From NCBI RefSeq assembly GCF_020923495.1, contig NZ_CP064048.1, positions 1,614,501 to 1,678,500 of the forward strand: 64,000 bases of DNA, read 5' to 3'. Positions 2,566 through 27,423 of this stretch are shown here, in pieces. The translations under genes and the position numbers were made by a program. Source of the stretch: Brevibacillus sedimenti (GTDB lineage: Bacteria > Bacillota > Bacilli > Brevibacillales > Brevibacillaceae). The first letter of the stretch is position 1; each line of letters opens with the position of its first letter. The notes under the pieces were generated by a model. That model was given only the letters and a program-made list of their open reading frames with translations. It ran no database searches and was not told where the DNA came from.

Positions 2566-3968
2566 TCTGGGACAAACTGAACGAAGAATGCGGCGTCTTT
2601 GGCATCTACAACCACCGGGAAGCAGCCCCGCTGACCTATCTGGGGCTGCACGCCCTGCAGCACCGCGGCCAGGAGAGCGCGGGCATCTGCGCCTCCGACG
2701 GTGAAAAGTGGTACAAGCACCGCGGCATGGGGCTGGTCTCGGAGGCGTTTGGCAAGGGCGACCTGGAGAAGTTTCGCGGCCATATCGCCATCGGCCACAC
2801 GCGTTACACCACGGCCGGGGCGAGCAAGATCGAAAACGCGCAGCCGCTCTTTTTCCGCTACGCGCACGGCAGCATGGCCGTCGCCCACAACGGCAACCTG
2901 GTCAACGCCTCTGTGCTGCGAAAAGAGCTGGAGGCCAAGGGTTCCATTTTCCAGACGACGAGCGACACCGAAGTGATCGCCCACCTGATCGCCCGTTCGC
3001 AAAGCCGCGATCTGGCGGAAGCGGTCCGGGAAGCGCTGCAGCACATCAAGGGCGCATATGCGCTTTTGGTGATGAACGAGCGGCAGCTCATTATTGCGCT
3101 CGACCCGAACGGTCTGCGTCCGCTGTCGCTCGGCCGTCTGGGCGACGCCGTCTGCGTAGCCTCCGAGACGTGCGCCTTTGACATCATCGGCGCAGAGTAT
3201 TGGCGCGACGTCCGGCCGGGCGAGCTGATCATCATCGACGAGGACGGCATCCGCGAGACGACGTTTACGGACAAAACCGTCCGTTCCATCTGTACGTTTG
3301 AGTACATTTACTTCGCCCGTCCGGACAGCGACATCGACGGGATCAACGTGCACATGGCCCGCAAGCGGCTGGGCAAGCAGCTCGCGCTGGAGGCGCCGGT
3401 GGAGGCCGACGTGGTGACGGGCGTGCCCGATTCCAGCATCTCGGCGGCCATCGGCTTCGCGGAGGCGACCGGCATTCCTTACGAGATCGGGTTGATTAAA
3501 AACCGCTACGTGGGACGCACCTTTATCCAGCCGACGCAGGAACTGCGGGAACGGGCCGTACACCTGAAGCTGTCCGCCGTGCGCAAGGTGGTGGAAGGCA
3601 AGCGGGTGGTGATGATCGACGATTCGATCGTGCGCGGCACGACCAGCAGCCGCATTGTCCGCATGCTGCGCGAGGCGGGGGCGCGGGAAGTGCACGTGCG
3701 GGTAAGTTCGCCGCCGGTGAAAAATCCCTGCTTCTACGGCATCGACACATCCACCCGGGACGAACTGATCGCCGCCACCAAATCGGTCGAAGAGATTCGC
3801 CGCATCATCGGCGCGGACTCGCTGGCTTTTTTGTCGGTGGAGGGCATGATCGAAGCGATCGGCCGTACGGACGCGGCTCCCAACAACGGCCACTGCCTGG
3901 CCTGCTTCACCGGCCAGTATCCCACGGAGATTGAATTTGAGGCGGCACTGCCGGCAGACAAGTGTTAA
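2550..3968 (+). CDS. purF: Amidophosphoribosyltransferase (glutamine PRPP amidotransferase)
   Basis: PurF makes phosphoribosylamine from PRPP and glutamine, the first committed step of purine synthesis. The ATG at 2550 is preferred over a TTG 18 bases upstream because GGAAGG sits at 2534-2539. This start gives a 13-residue propeptide ending in LNEE before CGVFG, so Cys14 becomes the N-terminal nucleophile after self-cleavage, as in the B. subtilis enzyme. The PRPP loop [13 protein letters not shown] lies near residue 350. Cysteines in SICTFEY, KNPCFYG and GHCLACF fit the four ligands of the 4Fe-4S cluster of Bacillus-type PurF. The start overlaps the purL end by 16 bases. Confidence 0.97.
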
Positions 3969-3980
3969 GAGGGTGAAACC

Positions 3981-5021
3981 ATGAGCGAAGCATACAAGCA
4001 AGCAGGCGTCGACATCGAGGCGGGCAACGAAGCGGTAGAGCGGATGAAAAAGCATGTGAAGCGGACGTTCCGTCCCGAGGTGCTGACTGATTTGGGCGGA
4101 TTTGGCGCGTTGTTTCGCCTGGATGTGTCCCGGTACAAAAAACCGGTGCTCGTCTCGGGCACGGACGGCGTGGGCACCAAGCTGAAGCTCGCGTTTGCCA
4201 TGGACAAACACGACACAATCGGCATCGACGCCGTGGCGATGTGCGTCAACGACGTAGTCGTGCAGGGAGCGGAACCGCTCTTTTTCCTCGATTACCTGGC
4301 CTGCGACAAAGTGATTCCGGAAAAGATCGAGGCAATCGTCAAGGGCATCGCCGACGGCTGCACCCAGGCAGGCTGCTCGCTGATCGGCGGGGAGACGGCG
4401 GAAATGCCGGGCATGTACGCGGAAGGCGAGTACGACATCGCCGGGTTTACCGTCGGTGTCGCGGACGAAGATAAGCTGATCACCGGTGCTGATGTAAAGC
4501 CGGGTGACGTGCTGGTGGGGCTTGCCTCCAGCGGCGTGCACAGCAACGGCTTTTCCCTCGTGCGCAAAGTGCTGCTGGCGGATCGGGGAATGTCGCTACA
4601 CGACCATGTGGACGAGCTCGGCAAAACACTGGGGGAAGAGCTGCTGACGCCGACCCGGATTTACGTCAAGCCGATTCTTTCGCTGCTCCAGTCTTATGAG
4701 ATCAAGGCGATGGCCCACATCACCGGCGGCGGCTTCACGGAAAACATTCCGCGCGTCCTGCCCGAGGGAACGCAGGCGGTGATCGACGTCGGTTCCTGGC
4801 CGGTGCTGCCGATTTTCCGGCTGGTGCAGGAGGCGGGCAGCATCAACCCGGCCGACATGTACCGCACGTTCAACATGGGCATCGGGATGGTGCTGGTCGT
4901 CAAACAGGACGACGTCGTCAACGTGATCGGCACGCTGCAGCAAATGGGCGAACAGCCGTACCTGATCGGTCAAATTCGGGCGGGCGAGCGGCGCGTCGTC
5001 TACAACGGGGTGACGTGGTGA
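3981..5021 (+). CDS. purM: Phosphoribosylformylglycinamidine cyclo-ligase (AIR synthetase)
   Basis: PurM closes the imidazole ring of FGAM to give AIR, using ATP. The 346-residue length is normal. The glycine-rich segment [20 protein letters not shown] near residues 53-72 and [19 protein letters not shown] after it are hallmark ATP-site motifs of the AIRS family. The ATG at 3981 follows AGAGGGTG. It starts 12 bases after purF and overlaps purN by 7 bases, so it is part of the same operon. Confidence 0.97.
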
Positions 5022-16942: not shown

Positions 16943-17650
16943 ATGGCATTGTTGGAACTGCATAACGTACACACCTATTACGGCGGCATCCACGCGTTAA
17001 AGGGGCTGAGCATCCAGGTCAACCAAGGGGAAGTGGTGACGCTGATCGGCTCCAACGGGGCAGGCAAGTCGACCACGCTGAAGACGATCTGCGGCCAGAC
17101 GCGCGCACGGGAAGGCAAAATCCTCTTTGACGGCAAGGACATCACCCAAATGCGCACGCATGAAATCGCCCTGCTGGGTATCGCCCACGTGCCGGAGGGG
17201 CGGCGCATTTTCCCCAAGCTGACCGTGCGGGAGAACCTGGAGATGGGCGCCTTCTCCGTAACGGACAAGAATCTGATCGAGGAAGGAATTGAGCGGGCAT
17301 TTCGCTACTTTCCCCGGCTGAAAGAGCGGATCAACCAAAAGGGCGGCACGATGTCCGGCGGGGAGCAGCAGATGCTGGCCATCGCACGCGGCCTGATGAT
17401 GAAGCCGAAGATTTTGATGCTGGACGAGCCGTCCATGGGGCTGGCGCCGATTCTGGTCGAACAGATTTTTGACATCATCACGGAGCTGAATAAGGAGGGC
17501 ATGACGATCCTGCTCGTGGAGCAAAACGCCAACCAGGCGCTCTCCGTGGCCCATCGCGGCTACGTCATCCAGACGGGAGAGATCATCCTGCAGGATGAGG
17601 CGGCCACCCTGCTGGCAAACCCGCAGGTGCGGGAAGCGTACCTTGCATAG
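16943..17650 (+). CDS. livF: Branched-chain amino acid ABC transporter ATPase LivF
   Basis: This is the second ATPase of the Liv importer, 235 residues. It has Walker A GSNGAGKSTT, signature MSGGEQQMLAIARGL, Walker B ILMLDEPSMGLAP and switch VEQNA. The LivF hallmark VPEGRRIFPKLTVRENLEMGA is present. It ends the operon, with a textbook terminator 9 bases behind the stop. The partner binding protein livJ is not adjacent; a candidate lies on the minus strand about 10 kb away. Confidence 0.94.
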   Translation: MALLELHNVHTYYGGIHALKGLSIQVNQGEVVTLIGSNGAGKSTTLKTICGQTRAREGKILFDGKDITQMRTHEIALLGIAHVPEGRRIFPKLTVRENLEMGAFSVTDKNLIEEGIERAFRYFPRLKERINQKGGTMSGGEQQMLAIARGLMMKPKILMLDEPSMGLAPILVEQIFDIITELNKEGMTILLVEQNANQALSVAHRGYVIQTGEIILQDEAATLLANPQVREAYLA

Positions 17651-17658
17651 AAGTGAAG

Positions 17659-17694
17659 CACCGATGGAGTCTAATGACTCCATCGGTGTTTTTT
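17659..17694 (+). terminator. Intrinsic terminator after livF
   Basis: CACCGATGGAGTC and its exact reverse complement GACTCCATCGGTG flank a TAAT loop and are followed by six T. The 13-bp stem is perfect. Confidence 0.97.
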
Positions 17695-19672: not shown

Positions 19673-20820
19673 CCGGCGTACAGCGCCATCATGCTGAACA
19701 GAACGGCCAGCGCGCCCGCGTAAAACGGGACGTGCGGCGAGTACCACTCGGCCAGCTTGCCCGCCAGCCAGGGCGCGATCGCGCCGCCGACAAAACGGAC
19801 GAAGCTGTAGGCGGAAGACGCGACGGCACGCTCCACCGGCGCGACGTCCATCACCGATGCGGTCAGGACGGTGTTGATAATGCCCAAAATCGCGCCGGCC
19901 AGGACGATAGCCAGCACCAGCGTCACTTGCGACGATACGCCCAATCCCATGGCCGTCAGGTCTGCGGACAACAGCAGCAGCATGGCGAACAGCGTGGGGA
20001 CGGACCCGCAGCGCTCCTGCAGTTTCGGCGCCACGATCACCGAGGTGATGGCGAGCATCACGCCCCAGAAGAAAAACACGTATCCCAGGCTGTGTTCGTC
20101 CATGTGCAGCACAAACGGAGAAAACGCCAGCAGCGTAAAAAACCCGAAGTTGTACAGAAGCGCCGTCAGCGCCATGGTAAACAGGCCGCGGTGCCGCAAC
20201 GCGCGGAACGGATCAAGGAGCGAGCTGCGCCGCTTCGGCTTGGGCACGTCGCTGAGCAGTACGAAGACAGCAAGCAGCGCGATCGCCATCAGCACGGCGA
20301 CGCCGAAAAACGGCCCGCGCCAACTGATGCCCCCGAGCAGCCCGCCAAGCAGCGGCCCCACGGACATCCCCAGACCGATGGCCGCTTCGTACAGGACGAT
20401 CGCTCCCGCCGTGCCGCCGCTGGCCACGCTGACAATCACCGCCAGGGCGGTGGAGATGAAAAAGGCGTTGCCCATTCCCCAGCCGGCGCGGAACCAGACG
20501 ATTTGCATCACCGAGTCGGACATGCCGCCGAGAAAGGAAAACAGGATGATGCCGGCCAGGCCGACCAGGAGCGTCGCCTTGGGTCCGATCCGGCTGGAGA
20601 CCCATCCTGTGACCAGCATGGTCAAGCCGGTCATCAGCATGTAGCTGGTGAACAACAGGGATACTTCACTGGGCGTGGCATTCAGTTGGCTCGCAATCGC
20701 GGGCAGGATCGGGTCGACCAATCCGATCCCCATGAAAGCGACCACACAGGCAAACGCGACAGCCCAGGCTGATTTTGGCTGCTGCATGATGATGCGCCAG
20801 GCATGCGCGTGACTTTCCAT
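19645..20820 (-). CDS. MFS multidrug-type efflux transporter
   Basis: A 391-residue major facilitator with about 12 membrane segments. FMGIGLVDPILPAIASQLNATPSEVSLLFTSYML spans the start of the first two helices, and the cytoplasmic loop has the motif-A-like GWVSSRIGPKATLLVG. Proline- and glycine-rich helix 5 (YEAAIGLGMSVGPLLGGLLG) resembles motif C of drug:H+ antiporters, so it probably exports a toxic compound. Its ATG shares one base with the stop of the upstream MerR gene, so the two are translationally coupled. The substrate is unknown. Confidence 0.84.
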   Translation of the reverse strand: MESHAHAWRIIMQQPKSAWAVAFACVVAFMGIGLVDPILPAIASQLNATPSEVSLLFTSYMLMTGLTMLVTGWVSSRIGPKATLLVGLAGIILFSFLGGMSDSVMQIVWFRAGWGMGNAFFISTALAVIVSVASGGTAGAIVLYEAAIGLGMSVGPLLGGLLGGISWRGPFFGVAVLMAIALLAVFVLLSDVPKPKRRSSLLDPFRALRHRGLFTMALTALLYNFGFFTLLAFSPFVLHMDEHSLGYVFFFWGVMLAITSVIVAPKLQERCGSVPTLFAMLLLLSADLTAMGLGVSSQVTLVLAIVLAGAILGIINTVLTASVMDVAPVERAVASSAYSFVRFVGGAIAPWLAGKLAEWYSPHVPFYAGALAVLFSMMALYAGKKQLASLH

Positions 20821-21266
20821 TAGGAATCCTCCTTTTTGATTTCGATTTCTGTCTGCAGTTCCTGTTTTTTTCTGGCAATGCGGGTCAGCTTCTCATCGTA
20901 GTCGGCCAGCAGCTCCGAGAGTTTGTTCAGTTTGTCCTGCAGGAAGCCGCGCTTGGCCAGGAGCGTCCGTTCCAGTTCGGTCAGCAGGTTCAGCTTATCT
21001 TCGGTGGACACTTCCTGGTAATAGCCCTGCTTCAACAGCTCGTATTTGTGGGACAGGTCCATCATGTCCTTGATTTCCTGCAGCGACGCTCCCAACAGGT
21101 CGCGGGTGTTTTTGACGTGCAGGATGTGGGCGATGTCCTCGTCCGTGTACATGCGGTATCCGCTCTCCGTTCGCCCGGACGGATTGACCAGCCCTAATTC
21201 CTCGTAATAGCGAAGCGCTCTTTTCGTAAGGCCGGTTTTTTTGGCTGCCTCCTCAATGCGGTACAA
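20820..21266 (-). CDS. MerR family transcriptional regulator
   Basis: The N-terminal winged helix reads YRIEEAAKKTGLTKRALRYYEELGLVNPSGRTESGYRMYTDEDI, a classic MerR domain. A dimerising coiled coil fills the C-terminal half (about residues 75-145). No cysteine cluster is seen, so a metal sensor is unlikely and a drug-binding or multidrug type is more plausible. The TTG start at 21266 is preferred because GGGAGGG lies 6 bases upstream; an in-frame ATG 15 bases earlier has no ribosome site. It likely controls itself and the coupled MFS gene through the palindrome at 21333-21350. Confidence 0.86.
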   Translation of the reverse strand: MYRIEEAAKKTGLTKRALRYYEELGLVNPSGRTESGYRMYTDEDIAHILHVKNTRDLLGASLQEIKDMMDLSHKYELLKQGYYQEVSTEDKLNLLTELERTLLAKRGFLQDKLNKLSELLADYDEKLTRIARKKQELQTEIEIKKEDS

Positions 21267-21332
21267 CGGGCTCCCTCCCATACGCGTGTGTAATGGCACG
21301 ACGACAAACAGACAAGGTTTATGATACAAAAC

Positions 21333-21350
21333 GGTAACGTTAACGTAAAC
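21333..21350. promoter_or_regulatory. Palindrome upstream of the MerR-MFS operon, likely MerR operator
   Basis: GGTAACGTT and AACGTAAAC form an 18-bp inverted repeat with two mismatched positions, centred on ACGTTAACGT. A further AACGTT copy follows at 21349-21354. It lies 67 bases upstream of the MerR start. On the minus strand a TTTACG/TATCAT promoter could run through it. Confidence 0.55.
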
Positions 21351-21388
21351 GTTATTGTTTTCCGCTTATATGGGCCAGCCGCGTGCAC

Positions 21389-21441: not shown

Positions 21442-22197
21442 TCACGGACGGTACCCCAATTCTGCAGACATCTCTCGCACGGTCTCCAGCAGTTCCCTGA
21501 GGATCGCATCCTTCTGGGGAAGAACGCGGTCGGACGGGCCGATCACGCTGACCGATGCGGCTACTTCACCGGTGGAATCAAACAGCGGCGCCGCCATCCC
21601 GGTAACGCCCACGTTGCGCCGGTCGGAGCTGAATTCGTAGCCCCGTTCCCTGATCTCCTGCAGCGCCCGCTTGATCTCGTCGGCTGACGTGTACGAGTAG
21701 GGCGTGTATGTCCGGATTCCCTCCGCCAGCACCTCGTCCTGAAACGATTCCGGTTTGTAGGCCAACAGCACGCGGGACGCGGAGGTGGAATAAAGGGGGA
21801 AGCGGCGGTGCGTCTCGACCGTAAAGCGGATCGGGTGAGGCGAATCCACCTTGGTGACGTAGATGGCGTCGGTGACGTCCTGCAGGCACAGCACGACCAG
21901 CTCCTGCGTGCGAGATACCAGGCGGTTGATATAGGGAGCGGCAAAGTCGACGATGTCGTGGTTTTTCAGCACCTTGTTGCCCAGCTCCAGCAGCGTGTAG
22001 CCGAGTGTGTACTGCCTGGTTTTTTCGTTTTGGCGGATAAATCCTTCCGCCTCCAGCGTCGCCAGCAGCTTGTGCACCGCTCCCTTGGAGAGCTGCAGCC
22101 GCTTGCTCAATTCCGTCACGCCGAGCTCCTTGGGCGCGTCGAGGAAGATTTTCAAGAGCCGGCAGCTGTTGCGTACGGAAGACAGAAAATGATCCAT
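21442..22197 (-). CDS. IclR family transcriptional regulator
   Basis: A 251-residue regulator with an N-terminal winged helix (ELGVTELSKRLQLSKGAVHKLLATLEAEGFI) and a C-terminal effector domain with LPQKDAILRELLETVREMSAELGY at the end. The middle segment RRNVGVTGMAAPLFDSTGEV is typical of the ligand pocket of this family. The ATG at 22197 follows GGAGGAG; a frame extension of 8 codons upstream is not needed. It is divergent from the five-gene transporter and peptidase operon, and a 35-bp palindrome lies between, so it very likely controls that operon. Confidence 0.92.
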   Translation of the reverse strand: MDHFLSSVRNSCRLLKIFLDAPKELGVTELSKRLQLSKGAVHKLLATLEAEGFIRQNEKTRQYTLGYTLLELGNKVLKNHDIVDFAAPYINRLVSRTQELVVLCLQDVTDAIYVTKVDSPHPIRFTVETHRRFPLYSTSASRVLLAYKPESFQDEVLAEGIRTYTPYSYTSADEIKRALQEIRERGYEFSSDRRNVGVTGMAAPLFDSTGEVAASVSVIGPSDRVLPQKDAILRELLETVREMSAELGYRP

Positions 22198-22302
22198 GGA
22201 TACGACTCCTCCAAAGCTCACATTTAGAATTAGTCTACCATAACCGGGAAGACTTTACGGTTCGAAAAGAGATAATCATCCCTTTACTCAGACTACCTTG
22301 AA

Positions 22303-22330
22303 TTGTCAGTCTCCTTTATGATAGTATATC
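22303..22330 (+). promoter_or_regulatory. Candidate promoter of the polyamine-type ABC operon
   Basis: TTGTCA (22303-22308) and TATATC (22325-22330) are 16 bases apart. Transcription would start near 22337, at the edge of the IclR-type palindrome, which fits repression by road-block or promoter occlusion. Confidence 0.45.
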
Positions 22331-22337
22331 ACTATAG

Positions 22338-22372
22338 TTCTCGAATAGGAAACTGTGTTTTCTATTCGTGAA
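22338..22372. promoter_or_regulatory. 35-bp near-perfect palindrome, likely IclR operator
   Basis: TTCTCGAATAGGAAAC and GTTTTCTATTCGTGAA are 16-base arms around a 3-base centre (TGT) with only two mismatches. It sits between the divergent IclR gene and the binding-protein gene, 41 bases before the latter's GTG. As RNA it would also form a hairpin, but it has no T tract, so a DNA operator is more likely. Confidence 0.72.
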
Positions 22373-22412
22373 CGATTTGCCAATAAACATACACATAGCG
22401 GGGGATGAACAC

Positions 22413-23528
22413 GTGAAGAAACAGGCATTATCGGTACTGTCCATTCTTGCTTTAACCGGTTCATTGCTCGCCGGCTGTGGGTCTTCCGCCGGGCAGTCAA
22501 CCGCGTCCGGCCAGCCTGTGGGGCAGGGCGGCAGCCAGGCACAGGCGCAGTTGGAGGACACGCTGGTCGTGGCGGGCAACGGCGCCACCGTCGAACAGCT
22601 AATGAAAGACGAGATTTTCAAGAAGTTCAACGAGAAGTACCCGAACGTGAAGCTGACCTACGTCTCCGGCGTCTCGACCGATATCGTGGCCAAGGTAAAA
22701 GCGCAGAAAAACGCGCCGCAGATCGACGTCACCATCGTCGAGGGAGGCGAACAGGAAAAAGGGCGCCAGGAAGGGCTGTGGGAGGCGCTTTCCGAGACGG
22801 ACATTCCCAACATGAAAAACGTTCCGCAGGACCTGCGCGTCGCGGAAAACAGCGGAGTAACCGTCAACTTTACGCCGATGGGCATCTCGTACAACGCGGA
22901 GCTCGTCAAGGAAAAAGGCCTGCCGGTGCCCAAGTCATGGAACGACTTGACCAGACCGGAAGTGAAGGGCTATATAACAATGACCGACGTGGCCAGCAAC
23001 TTCGGCCGCTCCACGATGATCATGCTGGCCTACGCCAACGGCGGTTCGGAGAAAAACATCGAGCCCGGCTTTGAAAAAATGAAAACGATTGCGAGCTACA
23101 TGCCGACGTTTGCCAAGAGCGCGGCCCAACTCCAACAAAACCTGCAAAACAAAAGTGCAGCCTACACCACCTGGACGATGGCCCGCAGCCTGACGCAAAA
23201 AGAGACGGGCCTGCCGTTGGAATTCGTCTTCCCGGAAGAGGGCGGAAACATCGTGCCGAACGTCGCCACGCTGGTCAAAGGGGCCAAGCACCCCAACGCC
23301 GCCAAAGCGTTTATCGACTTCCTGCTGAGCGACGAGGTGCAGATCATGTACGCGACCAAGCTCTACTACAACCCGGCCACGGCCGTGAAGCTGCCGGAAG
23401 ACGTGGCCAAGCAGTTGGAGTTTGACCGCAGTAAAGTGGTGAACTTCGACTACGACACGATCAGCAAGGAAATGTCCGCGTGGCTCGATCGCTTCAACAA
23501 AGAGATCGCGCCGCTGACAGGAAAGTAG
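22413..23528 (+). CDS. Polyamine/iron-type ABC transporter substrate-binding lipoprotein
   Basis: A 371-residue binding protein with a lipoprotein signal (ALTGSLLAGCGSS; the Cys would be lipidated). After a Ser/Gly/Gln-rich linker, the mature domain (LVVAGNGATVEQLMKDEIFKKF) is of the type that binds polyamines, opines, 2-aminoethylphosphonate or ferric iron. SYNAELVKEKGLPVPKSWNDL is a common segment in this cluster. The GTG at 22413 is chosen because GGGGGATG precedes it and the signal peptide then starts correctly. It is the first gene of an operon with ATPase, two permeases and an M20 peptidase. Confidence 0.85.
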   Translation: MKKQALSVLSILALTGSLLAGCGSSAGQSTASGQPVGQGGSQAQAQLEDTLVVAGNGATVEQLMKDEIFKKFNEKYPNVKLTYVSGVSTDIVAKVKAQKNAPQIDVTIVEGGEQEKGRQEGLWEALSETDIPNMKNVPQDLRVAENSGVTVNFTPMGISYNAELVKEKGLPVPKSWNDLTRPEVKGYITMTDVASNFGRSTMIMLAYANGGSEKNIEPGFEKMKTIASYMPTFAKSAAQLQQNLQNKSAAYTTWTMARSLTQKETGLPLEFVFPEEGGNIVPNVATLVKGAKHPNAAKAFIDFLLSDEVQIMYATKLYYNPATAVKLPEDVAKQLEFDRSKVVNFDYDTISKEMSAWLDRFNKEIAPLTGK

Positions 23529-23536
23529 GTGTCCCT

Positions 23537-24631
23537 TTGAGCAAGGTAATTGACGTCGAACTGTGCAACATCATGAAGAAGTTCCAGAATAACGTCGTGG
23601 TTCGGGATTTCAACCTGCAGGTGGAGCAGGGAGAGTTTGTCTCGTTTCTCGGGCCGTCCGGCTGCGGCAAGACGACCACGCTGAACATGATCGCCGGATT
23701 TCTGGACCCGGACGAAGGGGAGCTCTTGATCAAAGGGCGGCGCATGAACGGCGTCCCCCCTTACAAGCGCGAACTGGGCATGGTGTTTCAAACCTATTCG
23801 CTGTTTCCGCACATGACGGTGGCGGAAAACGTCGCCTACGGGCTGAAGCTGCGCAAGGTGGGCAAAGCCGAGATGCAGGAGCGGGTGAAGCGGGTGCTGG
23901 AATTGGTCAAGCTGCCGCATGTGGCCGACCGCTATCCCAAGCAGTTGTCCGGCGGTCAGCGGCAGCGGATTGCGATCGCCCGCGCACTGGTGATCGAGCC
24001 GTCGCTGCTTCTTTTGGACGAGCCGCTCAGCAACCTGGACGCCAAGCTGCGCGAAGAACTGCGCGACGAACTGAAGCGGCTGCACCAGGAGATCGGCGTG
24101 ACCACCATTTTCGTTACCCATGACCAGGAAGAAGCGCTCTCTTTGTCGGATCGAATCGTCGTGCTGAACCACGGCCGCGTCGAGCAGATCGGCACGCCTG
24201 AGGAGATCTACAACCGTCCCGCCTCCGAGTTCGTCCACACCTTCATCGGCAAGACCAATCGCCTGGAAGGAGTCGTACTCGCTCAGGACGGAGAGAGTCT
24301 CACCGTGAAAACGATGGGCGGCCTCATCGTCAGGGCGGCCCGGCAGCAGCGGGTGTTTGTTCCTGGCGAAAGAGTGGCGATGTTTGTGCGGCCGGAAAAA
24401 ATCCGAATGGCGGACGGAGCGGCAGCGAGTGAGGTCAATCACGTCAGCGGCCAGTTGATGATTGCCTCATTTTTGGGCGCCTTTACCGAGTGCGAGGTGA
24501 AGGTGGGAGGTCATACCCTGTCCGTTAAGGTGCAGATGGACGGGCAGGGGATGCCGCTTACCCCCGGCAGGGCGGTCAACTGCCGCTGGGAGAGCGAAGA
24601 CGTGCTGGTCATGCCGGCGGAGAGGGGATAG
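23537..24631 (+). CDS. ABC transporter ATPase, PotA-like
   Basis: A 364-residue ATPase of the polyamine/iron (CUT1-like) group. It has Walker A GPSGCGKTTT, signature QLSGGQRQRIAIARAL, Walker B LLLLDEPLSNLDAKL, H-loop VTHDQEEA and a C-terminal TOBE domain from about residue 240. The likely start is the TTG at 23537, 8 bases after the binding-protein stop; a longer frame overlaps the previous gene and is unlikely. Confidence 0.88.
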   Translation: MSKVIDVELCNIMKKFQNNVVVRDFNLQVEQGEFVSFLGPSGCGKTTTLNMIAGFLDPDEGELLIKGRRMNGVPPYKRELGMVFQTYSLFPHMTVAENVAYGLKLRKVGKAEMQERVKRVLELVKLPHVADRYPKQLSGGQRQRIAIARALVIEPSLLLLDEPLSNLDAKLREELRDELKRLHQEIGVTTIFVTHDQEEALSLSDRIVVLNHGRVEQIGTPEEIYNRPASEFVHTFIGKTNRLEGVVLAQDGESLTVKTMGGLIVRAARQQRVFVPGERVAMFVRPEKIRMADGAAASEVNHVSGQLMIASFLGAFTECEVKVGGHTLSVKVQMDGQGMPLTPGRAVNCRWESEDVLVMPAERG

Positions 24632-24634
24632 CCG

Positions 24635-25477
24635 ATGAGCAAGCGTATCTCCATTCTGCTGCTGACGGCGCCGAGCATGATCGTGCTCCTGGGCGTGTTT
24701 CTGATTCCGATGCTGCTGATGCTCCTGTTGAGTTTTCAGGACGACACGCAGGCGTTCAGCTTGCAAAACTACCTGTTGTTCATCCAGGACCCATTTTACC
24801 TGGAGATTCTGTGGCGGACCATCCGCATCAGCCTCTGGACGGTGCTGTGCACGCTCCTGCTCGGCTTTCCCGTGGCCATGTTCATGGCGCAGGCTTCAGG
24901 CCGGATGCGGGGCGTCGTCACCATACTGATTCTGGCGCCGCATCTGATCAGCGTGGTGATCCGCAACTTCGGCTGGGTGGTTGTACTCGGTGAAAAGGGC
25001 TGGATCAACGAAACGCTGCTGAGGCTGGGCGTGATCGACCAACCGCTGCGCCTGATGTACAACGAGCTGGGCGTGGTCATTGGCCTGACCGATTCATTTA
25101 TCGCCTACATGGTGCTGGCGATCGCCACCAGCCTGTATGCGATTGATCCGTCGCTGTCCAAGGCGGCGTCCATTTTGGGAGCGTCTCGCTTGCGGACGTT
25201 TTTCACCGTGACGCTGCCGCTCACCCTGCCGGGTATTATCGCCGGTACGACACTGGTGTTCAGCTTGTCGATGAGCGCGTTTGTGACGCCGGCGCTGATG
25301 GGGGGCACCTCTGTGAAAGTAATGCCGGTCATCGCCTACGAACAGATTATGTCGACGCTCAACTGGCCGCTGGGAGCGGCACTGTCCTTCCTGCTGCTGG
25401 GCAGCACGATCCTGCTGGTCACTCTGTACACGCGGTTGATTGAAACCAAGCGATACAAAGAGGTGTTTGCGTCATGA
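24635..25477 (+). CDS. ABC transporter permease, PotB-like
   Basis: A 280-residue inner-membrane permease with six predicted segments and the cytoplasmic EAA loop DPSLSKAASILGASRLRTFFTVTLPLTLPGI. The sequence resembles PotB-type permeases of spermidine/putrescine-like systems. It starts 3 bases after the ATPase stop with GGAGAGGGG upstream, and overlaps the next permease by 4 bases. Confidence 0.88.
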   Translation: MSKRISILLLTAPSMIVLLGVFLIPMLLMLLLSFQDDTQAFSLQNYLLFIQDPFYLEILWRTIRISLWTVLCTLLLGFPVAMFMAQASGRMRGVVTILILAPHLISVVIRNFGWVVVLGEKGWINETLLRLGVIDQPLRLMYNELGVVIGLTDSFIAYMVLAIATSLYAIDPSLSKAASILGASRLRTFFTVTLPLTLPGIIAGTTLVFSLSMSAFVTPALMGGTSVKVMPVIAYEQIMSTLNWPLGAALSFLLLGSTILLVTLYTRLIETKRYKEVFAS

Positions 25478-26274
25478 AAAAGCTGAACGGGTTCGGACTG
25501 ATCACCTTCTTTGTGCTGCTTCTGGTCAACCTGCCGTTTCTGGTTATCATCCCCAGCTCGTTTACCGCGGCCGGATACCTGTCGTTTCCGCCGGATGGCT
25601 TTTCCTGGCAGTGGTACGACAAGATTCTGGATCGGCCGGAGTTTATCGAGTCGTTCTGGTTCAGCCTGCAGCTTGCCGCGATTACGGCCGTGCTGGCGAC
25701 GCTGATCGGCACGTTGGCGGCCTTTGCCTTGAGCAAGTACAAATTCCGCGGCAGCGGGGTCATCAACGGCCTGCTGCTGTCGCCGCTGACCGTGCCGTCG
25801 CTGATCATCGGGATCGCCGCGCTGCTGTTCTTTACGCGGATCGGCATTGCCGGCACGTTTACCGGCCTGCTCCTGGCCCACACGCTGATCTCCATTCCGT
25901 ACGTGGTGCGGCTGGTGCTGACCGGCCTCAGCACGTTCGACTACACCCTGGAAAAGGCGGGCTACATGCTGGGAGCCCGGCCGCTGCGGGTGTTTTGGGA
26001 CGTCACACTGCCGCTTTTGCGGCCGGCCATCGTGTCGGGTATGATCTTTTCGTTTCTGACCTCGTTTGACAACGTGACGGTGTCGCTCTTCTTGGTGGCG
26101 CCCGACACGACAACGCTGCCGCTGGCTATTTTCACCTACATGCAGGAGACGCTGGACCCGCTGGTGGCCTCCATCTCCGCGGTCGTCATCCTACTCAGCC
26201 TGGTGTTTATCGTCCTGCTGGAAAAGGTGTACGGGCTGGAGCGCCTGTTTGGACTCAATTCCCAATCCCATTAA
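25474..26274 (+). CDS. ABC transporter permease, PotC-like
   Basis: A 266-residue permease paired with the PotB-like protein. The EAA loop is TLEKAGYMLGARPLRVFWDVTLPLLRPAI. Strong hydrophobic segments include FGLITFFVLLLVNLPFLVII at the N-terminus. ATGA overlap with the previous gene shows tight coupling. Confidence 0.88.
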   Translation: MKKLNGFGLITFFVLLLVNLPFLVIIPSSFTAAGYLSFPPDGFSWQWYDKILDRPEFIESFWFSLQLAAITAVLATLIGTLAAFALSKYKFRGSGVINGLLLSPLTVPSLIIGIAALLFFTRIGIAGTFTGLLLAHTLISIPYVVRLVLTGLSTFDYTLEKAGYMLGARPLRVFWDVTLPLLRPAIVSGMIFSFLTSFDNVTVSLFLVAPDTTTLPLAIFTYMQETLDPLVASISAVVILLSLVFIVLLEKVYGLERLFGLNSQSH

Positions 26275-26286
26275 GGAAGAGGCACG

Positions 26287-27423
26287 ATGTCAATTCACTC
26301 GTATTTGCAACAACATCACCAACACCTGATCCAGCTCTTGGAAGCCTGCGTCAACATGGATTCCCCCTCACGCGACAAGGAGGCGGGGGATCGGATGGCG
26401 GAGTGGTTTGCCCGCTGCTTCGAGGAACTGACCGGAGGCAGGGCGGAGCGAATCCCCAACAGCGTCTACGGCGACCAGGTCCGCTGCGTGCTGGGAAGCG
26501 GCAGCAGACAAGTCCTGTTGATTGGCCACTACGACACGGTCTGGCCGCGAGGGGAAGCAGCCCGTCGTCCGTTTTTCATCCGGGAGGGAAAAGCATACGG
26601 CCCGGGCGTCTACGACATGAAGGCGGGCGTGCTGCAGGCGATGTTTGCGCTGCGCTCGCTGGCGGAGCTGAACCGTCTGCCGGCTGACAAGCAGGTGGTG
26701 CTTTTGCTCAACAGCGACGAAGAAATCGGCAGCCCTACCTCGCGGGCACTCGTCGAACGGGAGGCGTCCCGTTCCCTGGCCGGCTTCGTGCTGGAGCCGC
26801 CGATGGAGCCGGACGGCGCGCTGAAGACGTGGCGCAAAGGCAGCGCCCACTTTACTCTGCACGTCCACGGCGTTTCCGCCCACGCCGGGGTGGACCACGA
26901 CAAAGGAGTGTCGGCGATTGAGGAGCTGTCCCGGCTGGTGCAGTACCTGCACGGACTGACCGACTATGCGAGCGGGACGACCGTCAACGTGGGGCTGGTC
27001 AAAGGGGGAATCGGCTCCAATGTGGTGGCCGATTACGCCGAAGCAGAAGTGGACGTCCGGGTGAGGACGCTGGAGGAAGCGCGGCGAATTGAGCGGCTGT
27101 TTGCGGGACTGACGCCCAGCCTGTCCGGCGCGCGGCTGACGGTGTCCGGCGGCATCCGCCGTCCGCCGATGGAACGGACGGAGCAGGTCGCCGCCCTGTT
27201 TGCCCTGGCCCGGAAGATTGGGGCAGAGGAGTTGGGTATGTCGCTGCGGGAGTCGGGCACCGGCGGCGTCAGCGACGGAAACTTCGCCGCCGCCTGCGGT
27301 CTCCCTACCCTTGACGGGCTGGGGGCAAAAGGCGGGTTTGCCCACTCGCCGGAGGAATTTGTGGAGCTGGACGAGATTCCCAGACGCGCTGCCCTGCTGG
27401 CTCGGTTGATCGAAGAGGTGTAG
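26287..27423 (+). CDS. M20 family metallopeptidase (carboxypeptidase G2-like)
   Basis: A 378-residue two-domain zinc hydrolase of the M20A/CPG2 type. Metal ligands and catalytic residues are visible in LIGHYDTVWPRG (His and Asp), VYDMKAG (bridging Asp), NSDEEIGS (catalytic Glu and Glu ligand) and GGFAHSPEEF (last His). The dimerisation domain is inserted at about residues 180-290. It is the last gene of the IclR-linked operon, 12 bases behind the permease and with no signal peptide, so it should act in the cytoplasm on the imported compound. A likely substrate is an amide such as an N-acylated amino acid or glutamyl conjugate; this is inference. Confidence 0.88.
   Translation: MSIHSYLQQHHQHLIQLLEACVNMDSPSRDKEAGDRMAEWFARCFEELTGGRAERIPNSVYGDQVRCVLGSGSRQVLLIGHYDTVWPRGEAARRPFFIREGKAYGPGVYDMKAGVLQAMFALRSLAELNRLPADKQVVLLLNSDEEIGSPTSRALVEREASRSLAGFVLEPPMEPDGALKTWRKGSAHFTLHVHGVSAHAGVDHDKGVSAIEELSRLVQYLHGLTDYASGTTVNVGLVKGGIGSNVVADYAEAEVDVRVRTLEEARRIERLFAGLTPSLSGARLTVSGGIRRPPMERTEQVAALFALARKIGAEELGMSLRESGTGGVSDGNFAAACGLPTLDGLGAKGGFAHSPEEFVELDEIPRRAALLARLIEEV

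Follow-up and report, generated by a model that had tools for sequence, protein, structure and literature searches.

A conserved tandem GTT-N11-AAC element as the predicted operator of an IclR-family regulator and a divergent importer-peptidase operon in Brevibacillaceae

INTRODUCTION

What is the role of a large palindrome that lies between a divergent IclR-family gene and an operon for a putative importer and a peptidase in Brevibacillus sedimenti, and which protein would bind it? The locus was followed up in a stretch of 64,000 nucleotides (hereafter, the window), in which an earlier note, made from the letters alone, had described a 35-bp palindrome and had predicted from it a strong dimer-of-dimers operator. 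Here, we describe the element and its gene neighborhood, follow both through the bacterial family and the phylum, and weigh the operator reading against a chance palindrome, an RNA hairpin, a site for another regulator and a site used for activation. A search of the literature on Brevibacillus and IclR, with subscription journals mostly outside its scope, found no paper naming this regulator.

RESULTS

The palindrome in the window

The palindrome at 22338 to 22372 reads TTCTCGAATAGGAAAC-TGT-GTTTTCTATTCGTGAA, and 14 of the 16 arm positions are complementary, so the arms of 16 bases with two mismatches described before are indeed present. Extending it by one pair on each side gives a 37-bp element (22337 to 22373) with 15 of 17 positions complementary, and an alternative palindrome measurement of the same element returned 20-nt arms that are 85% complementary. 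No other place in the 64-kb window combines arms of 16 bases and a 3-base loop with 14 or more matches, and the same criteria yielded a mean of 0.03 places in 100 first-order Markov sequences. When loops of 0 to 8 bases were allowed, the window contained 6 overlapping matches at 3 places. The Markov sequences then gave a mean of 0.26, the largest value being 4, and this rate of 0.26 per 64 kb is what speaks for a chance palindrome or a functionless terminator. That reading was rejected and has a practically nil probability, given the position-specific conservation of the element in 32 of 32 loci (see below). No T run was found right after the palindrome, and no terminator-like site was listed in 22190 to 22440. 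The palindrome per se is uncommon, not astonishing; the proof comes from its conservation.

Two other palindromes of the window deserve a description of their own. Another of the three places mentioned above (17655 to 17692) forms a hairpin with a T run after the stem, behind an ABC transporter ATPase gene (16943 to 17650), and probably serves as an intrinsic terminator of the usual kind. A further large but imperfect palindrome, AAAACGGTAACGTTAACGTAAACGTTATTGTTTT (21328 to 21361), lies at the 5' end of a MerR-family gene (20820 to 21329, TTG start) and looks like a MerR-type promoter/operator. A similar stretch precedes the MerR gene of locus L004.

The regulator and the operon

The features of the locus are collected in Table 1. 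The divergent gene encodes an IclR-family transcription factor by its domain content, with 49.0 bits for PF09339 (HTH_IclR; cut-off 22) and 116.1 bits for PF01614 (IclR_C; cut-off 24). Its probable start is an ATG at 22197 behind GGAGGA, and an alternative GTG lies at 22221. In the recognition helix, LSKGAVHKLL, the S, K, H and K are invariant across 32 orthologues; the equivalence of these residues to DNA-contacting positions comes from our own alignment to a table in PMC8222616.

TABLE 1 Coordinates of the regulator gene, the predicted control region and the operon
Feature	Coordinates	Strand	Remarks
IclR-family regulator gene	21442..22197	-	HTH_IclR and IclR_C domains
Predicted operon promoter	22298..22327	+	TTGAAT, 18 nt, TAGTAT, upstream TG; kept in 29-row alignment
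Upstream unit, predicted site of IclR dimer 1	22337..22353	+	GTTCTC-GAATA-GGAAAC; GTT-N11-AAC in 32/32 loci
Spacer	22354..22356	+	3 nt in 32/32 loci, variable sequence
Downstream unit, predicted site of IclR dimer 2	22357..22373	+	GTTTTC-TATTC-GTGAAC; 32/32 orthologous loci
Extracellular solute-binding protein, first operon gene	22413..23528	+	Lipoprotein-like LAGC signal; GTG start behind GGGGG
ABC transporter ATPase, PotA-like	23537..24631	+	TIGR01187, 369.3 bits (cut-off 355.6)
ABC transporter permease, PotB-like	24635..25477	+	Nearest NCBIfam models under cut-offs
ABC transporter permease, PotC-like	25474..26274	+	Nearest NCBIfam models under cut-offs
M20 family metallopeptidase	26287..27423	+	Nearest solved relative carboxypeptidase G2

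For the solute-binding protein, the best NCBIfam models (PhnS2, PhnS, PotD and others) scored far under their cut-offs, and proteins that bind iron, polyamines and pyridoxal phosphate are among its PDB relatives. The gene order, with the IclR gene divergent from the genes for the solute-binding protein, PotA, PotB, PotC and M20, was kept in 28 of 28 relatives (loci of 13 to 15 kb), all of which carried the six proteins. No plasmid relatives of the region were found at blastn sensitivity. A second M20 gene, 51% identical to that of the operon, is present in the genome of the window itself (G000:C1:3687472-3688548).

Conservation and specificity of the element

A search for the IclR protein covered 60 genomes, 36 of them in the family, and 3 further family genomes, which gives 39 family genomes. 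An orthologue was found in 32 of these, namely, the genome of the window, 28 others and all 3 further ones, and the remaining matches listed, at most 40% identical, were counted as paralogues. Identity in the relatives ranged from 57 to 98%, with the upper value in Brevibacillus thermoruber 423 (G022); B. borstelensis NRRL NRS 818 (G024) was also among the relatives compared. In every orthologue-bearing genome, two GTT-N11-AAC units with a 3-bp spacer lie between the IclR gene and the divergent operon (29/29 for the window and the 28 relatives, plus G060, G062 and G061); the site of G061 is one base off a stricter pattern. The intergenic placement between regulator and operon that had been noted in the window is thus the same in 32 of 32 orthologous loci, and the palindrome's conservation in homologous loci, on which the earlier proposal hung, is borne out by an element at the same place.

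The strict pattern occurred in 31 of the 39 family genomes at one place each, with 0 matches for reversed-pattern controls, and all 31 places are on the divergent side of the IclR match, at a distance of 110 to 184 bp. The genome of the window was the single one with the pattern among 398 genomes from across the phylum. The suggestion to search for the motif elsewhere was likewise followed in the 3.93-Mb genome of the window, where the site is unique: the skeleton of 12 fixed bases occurs once, and a tighter pattern allowing up to 3 mismatches recovered the same single place. A looser pattern with 2 mismatches also matched this place alone, but 3 matches for its reversed control make that search weak evidence on further targets. 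Since the 12-base skeleton is unique in this genome, the regulator looks local.

In the 7 family genomes lacking the IclR orthologue, neither the site nor a close PotC relative was found (the best PotC matches were 32 to 39% identical), and none of the 39 family genomes had the site without the orthologue. Relatives of M20 do exist in these genomes, with identities of 47 to 50% in six of them and 30% in G034, values similar to the 51% of the second M20 gene in the window's genome. One of the seven, G008, contains at locus L121 (about 3571 to 4288) the C-terminal half of M20 (73% identity) abutting the last 39 residues of an IclR gene; examination of 6 kb there revealed neither the operator nor the transporter nor anything else of the gene set. 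A single deletion seems to have taken out the operator, the importer and the DNA-binding domain at once.

Four boxes in two units

The conserved element, GTT-N11-AAC-N3-GTT-N11-AAC, consists of four GTT/AAC boxes at fixed spacing, in which each 17-bp unit is formed by two GTT boxes face to face and the two centers are 20 bp apart. The centers fall at 22345 and 22365, respectively 68 and 48 nt ahead of the start codon. In Brevibacillus (genus g1, 24 genomes with the site), the long palindrome has 13 to 15 of 17 matches because the 5-bp centers of the units, GAATA and TATTC in the window, are largely inverted copies. Genus g2, represented by one genome, retains 13 of 17 matches. Palindromy falls to 8 to 12 of 17 in genera g3 (3 genomes) and g5 (4 genomes), where GTT and AAC remain invariant; the upstream unit of all three g3 loci (L055, L056 and L058) is a perfect GTTTCC-N5-GGAAAC, and one box of g5 reads GTTATC. 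The near-perfect symmetry highlighted in the earlier note therefore holds in the window but not as the common feature of the element, since what the 32 loci share is four boxes and not the 35-bp symmetry.

According to the survey by Suvorova and Gelfand (2021; PMC8222616), the GTT-11-AAC subgroup of IclR motifs is over-represented in Firmicutes, and tandem sites 18 to 22 nt apart, a spacing that agrees with the binding of a tetramer whose dimers share one DNA face, are predicted for 94 of 181 orthologous groups. By that count, the size of the palindrome, previously called unusual, is not so for an IclR operator. Both units have the GTT and AAC of this subgroup 11 bases apart in 32 of 32 loci, and the center-to-center distance is 20 nt in all of them. 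In a hand comparison with the published consensus GTTYCRYW3RYGRAAC, the upstream unit matches at 13 of 17 positions and the downstream unit at 12 of 17, with deviations in the inner letters. Two GTT-N11-AAC sites 20 bp apart reproduce the published tandem architecture, and the dimer-of-dimers operator proposed from the sequence of the window is consequently well supported as a prediction.

Symmetry statistics and the hairpin alternative

The same sequence could act as RNA and not as an operator, by forming a 5'-terminal hairpin in the mRNA that stabilizes the transcript or tunes its translation. A transcription start is predicted directly upstream of the element, the sense strand in the window genome folds at -17.2 kcal/mol (z -7.1), and in 29 of 32 loci, the sense fold beats shuffles with a z of -2.0 or below. 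However, folding is a property of any DNA palindrome, and the fold of the opposite strand is about equally good (the sense fold is stronger in 18 of 32 loci and weaker in 14, by hand count). Moreover, the boxes persist where the fold does not: in genus g5, three of four genomes are near shuffles (z -0.8, -1.3 and -0.9, versus -3.2 in the fourth), and g3, with three genomes, shows two small hairpins instead. Among 27 distinct sequences, column pair 5/33 is unpaired in 26, pair 13/25 in 16 and pair 14/24 in 25. An Rfam search of the element gave two matches, both far under gathering scores.

Covariation was compared for the two possible pairings, with counts of two-sided changes that are inflated by related sequences. 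Pairing within the two units showed 1 cell changed on both sides, a value reached by 500 of 500 shuffles, and 81.5% pairing versus a shuffled mean of 83.1. The long palindrome showed 10 cells changed on both sides, reached by 0 of 500 shuffles, and 81.9% pairing versus 79.6 in shuffles (2 of 500 shuffles). As these two-sided changes in the long stem, which count in favor of a hairpin, exceed those of shuffles, the symmetry about the global center is partly kept too, a feature equally compatible with a hairpin and with a two-fold symmetric tetramer. Consequently, it is the published motif and genus g3, and not covariation, that justify treating the boxes as 17-bp units.

The boxes also changed unevenly, with C-to-T in 15 cells (columns 4, 6, 24 and 26) versus G-to-A in 1 cell (columns 12, 32 and 34), by a hand count of the 27 distinct rows of alignment A1 that excluded column 14 (A in 23, T in 4). 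This excess was counted for the hairpin because such changes would keep G-U pairs. The C-to-T changes affect plus-strand boxes and the G-to-A changes minus-strand boxes. The counts are mixed, and the hairpin is not taken as the conserved feature; as a replacement for the operator, we consider it very unlikely. There is also a slim chance that the two sites of Brevibacillus merged into one 37-bp palindrome because it has two roles, as the operator of an IclR tetramer and as a transcribed 5' hairpin that would stabilize the operon mRNA; the two-sided changes about the global center are compatible with this.

Promoter and position of the element

The earlier placement of the palindrome after a candidate promoter agrees with a predicted promoter directly upstream, with a -35 TTGAAT at 22298 to 22303 and a -10 TAGTAT at 22322 to 22327. 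It has 8 of 12 consensus bases by hand count, below the 9 of 12 needed by our consensus promoter scan, in which it was not listed; TTGA and the extended -10 TG-N-TA are kept in the 29-row alignment. At 18 nt, the promoter spacer of the window (22304 to 22321) is one base longer than that of its closest relative, B. thermoruber (L032; 17 nt). Transcription would start near 22334, placing the putative operator at about +4 to +40.

As the site follows the promoter, we infer that the bound IclR protein likely represses the operon. A pair of IclR dimers would occupy one face of the DNA, their units being 20 bp (about two helical turns) apart, and would probably form a cooperative tetramer. Directly downstream of the -10, they would block transcription of the operon from the solute-binding protein gene through PotA, PotB and PotC to M20, and a ligand, probably tied to the imported substrate, would release IclR from the operator. 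Use of the same site for activation, or both ways, is an unlikely variant of the operator reading and overlaps with the confidence placed in it. Some members of the IclR family, PobR and PcaU among them, activate transcription, and the weak -35 and -10 (8 of 12, absent from the scan list) also count for this variant; the site, however, is downstream of the -10, where a bound protein would block the polymerase.

DISCUSSION

We hold with high confidence, from comparative sequence evidence, that the element is the operator of the divergent IclR-family regulator. What can be read directly from the genomes is the element, the spacing of its boxes, its conservation, its uniqueness in the genome and its exclusive link, within the family, to this regulator and operon. 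Because the regulator, the operon and the site are either all retained or all missing, their co-occurrence suits an IclR site and a promoter element of the operon alike. For the same reason, co-occurrence with the operon does not by itself name the protein, and the site could serve another regulator, for example, a global one, while the divergent IclR protein binds elsewhere. We regard this as highly improbable, since the motif is of the type described for IclR proteins in PMC8222616, it occupies one place per genome in the 31 strict-pattern genomes, unlike the site of a global regulator, and 0 of 39 genomes have it without the IclR orthologue.

The predicted IclR operator thus belongs to a set of regulator, site and operon that is conserved across a bacterial family, with a single predicted binding site in each genome. 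This set could help to identify the substrate of the importer and the peptidase and could supply Brevibacillus with a ligand-responsive switch. It leaves general views of gene regulation as they are; the site is real, well conserved and ordinary in type.

Among known systems, the element resembles most of all the tandem GTT-11-AAC sites of PMC8222616, with which it has in common GTT and AAC 11 apart, an A/T-rich center, the 20-nt tandem and the occurrence in Firmicutes, as well as unit centers within the zone of 20 to 80 nt ahead of the start codon. It differs from those sites in several bases between box and center that are off the consensus and in the Brevibacillus centers, which are inverted copies and produce one long palindrome. 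The TtgV operator of Pseudomonas putida (PDB 2XRO), as cited in PMC8222616, is likewise bound by an IclR-family tetramer, whereas TtgV controls efflux transporters and the similarity between the regulators is low (E 1.6e-11). The PcaU and PobR operators of Acinetobacter also have GTTC- or GTCC-type boxes in inverted repeats, but theirs are three boxes in alternating direction, while the element described here has four in two inverted pairs (PMC8222616). Compared with these systems, the Brevibacillus element is very probably a two-dimer IclR operator of known design, linked to one operon.
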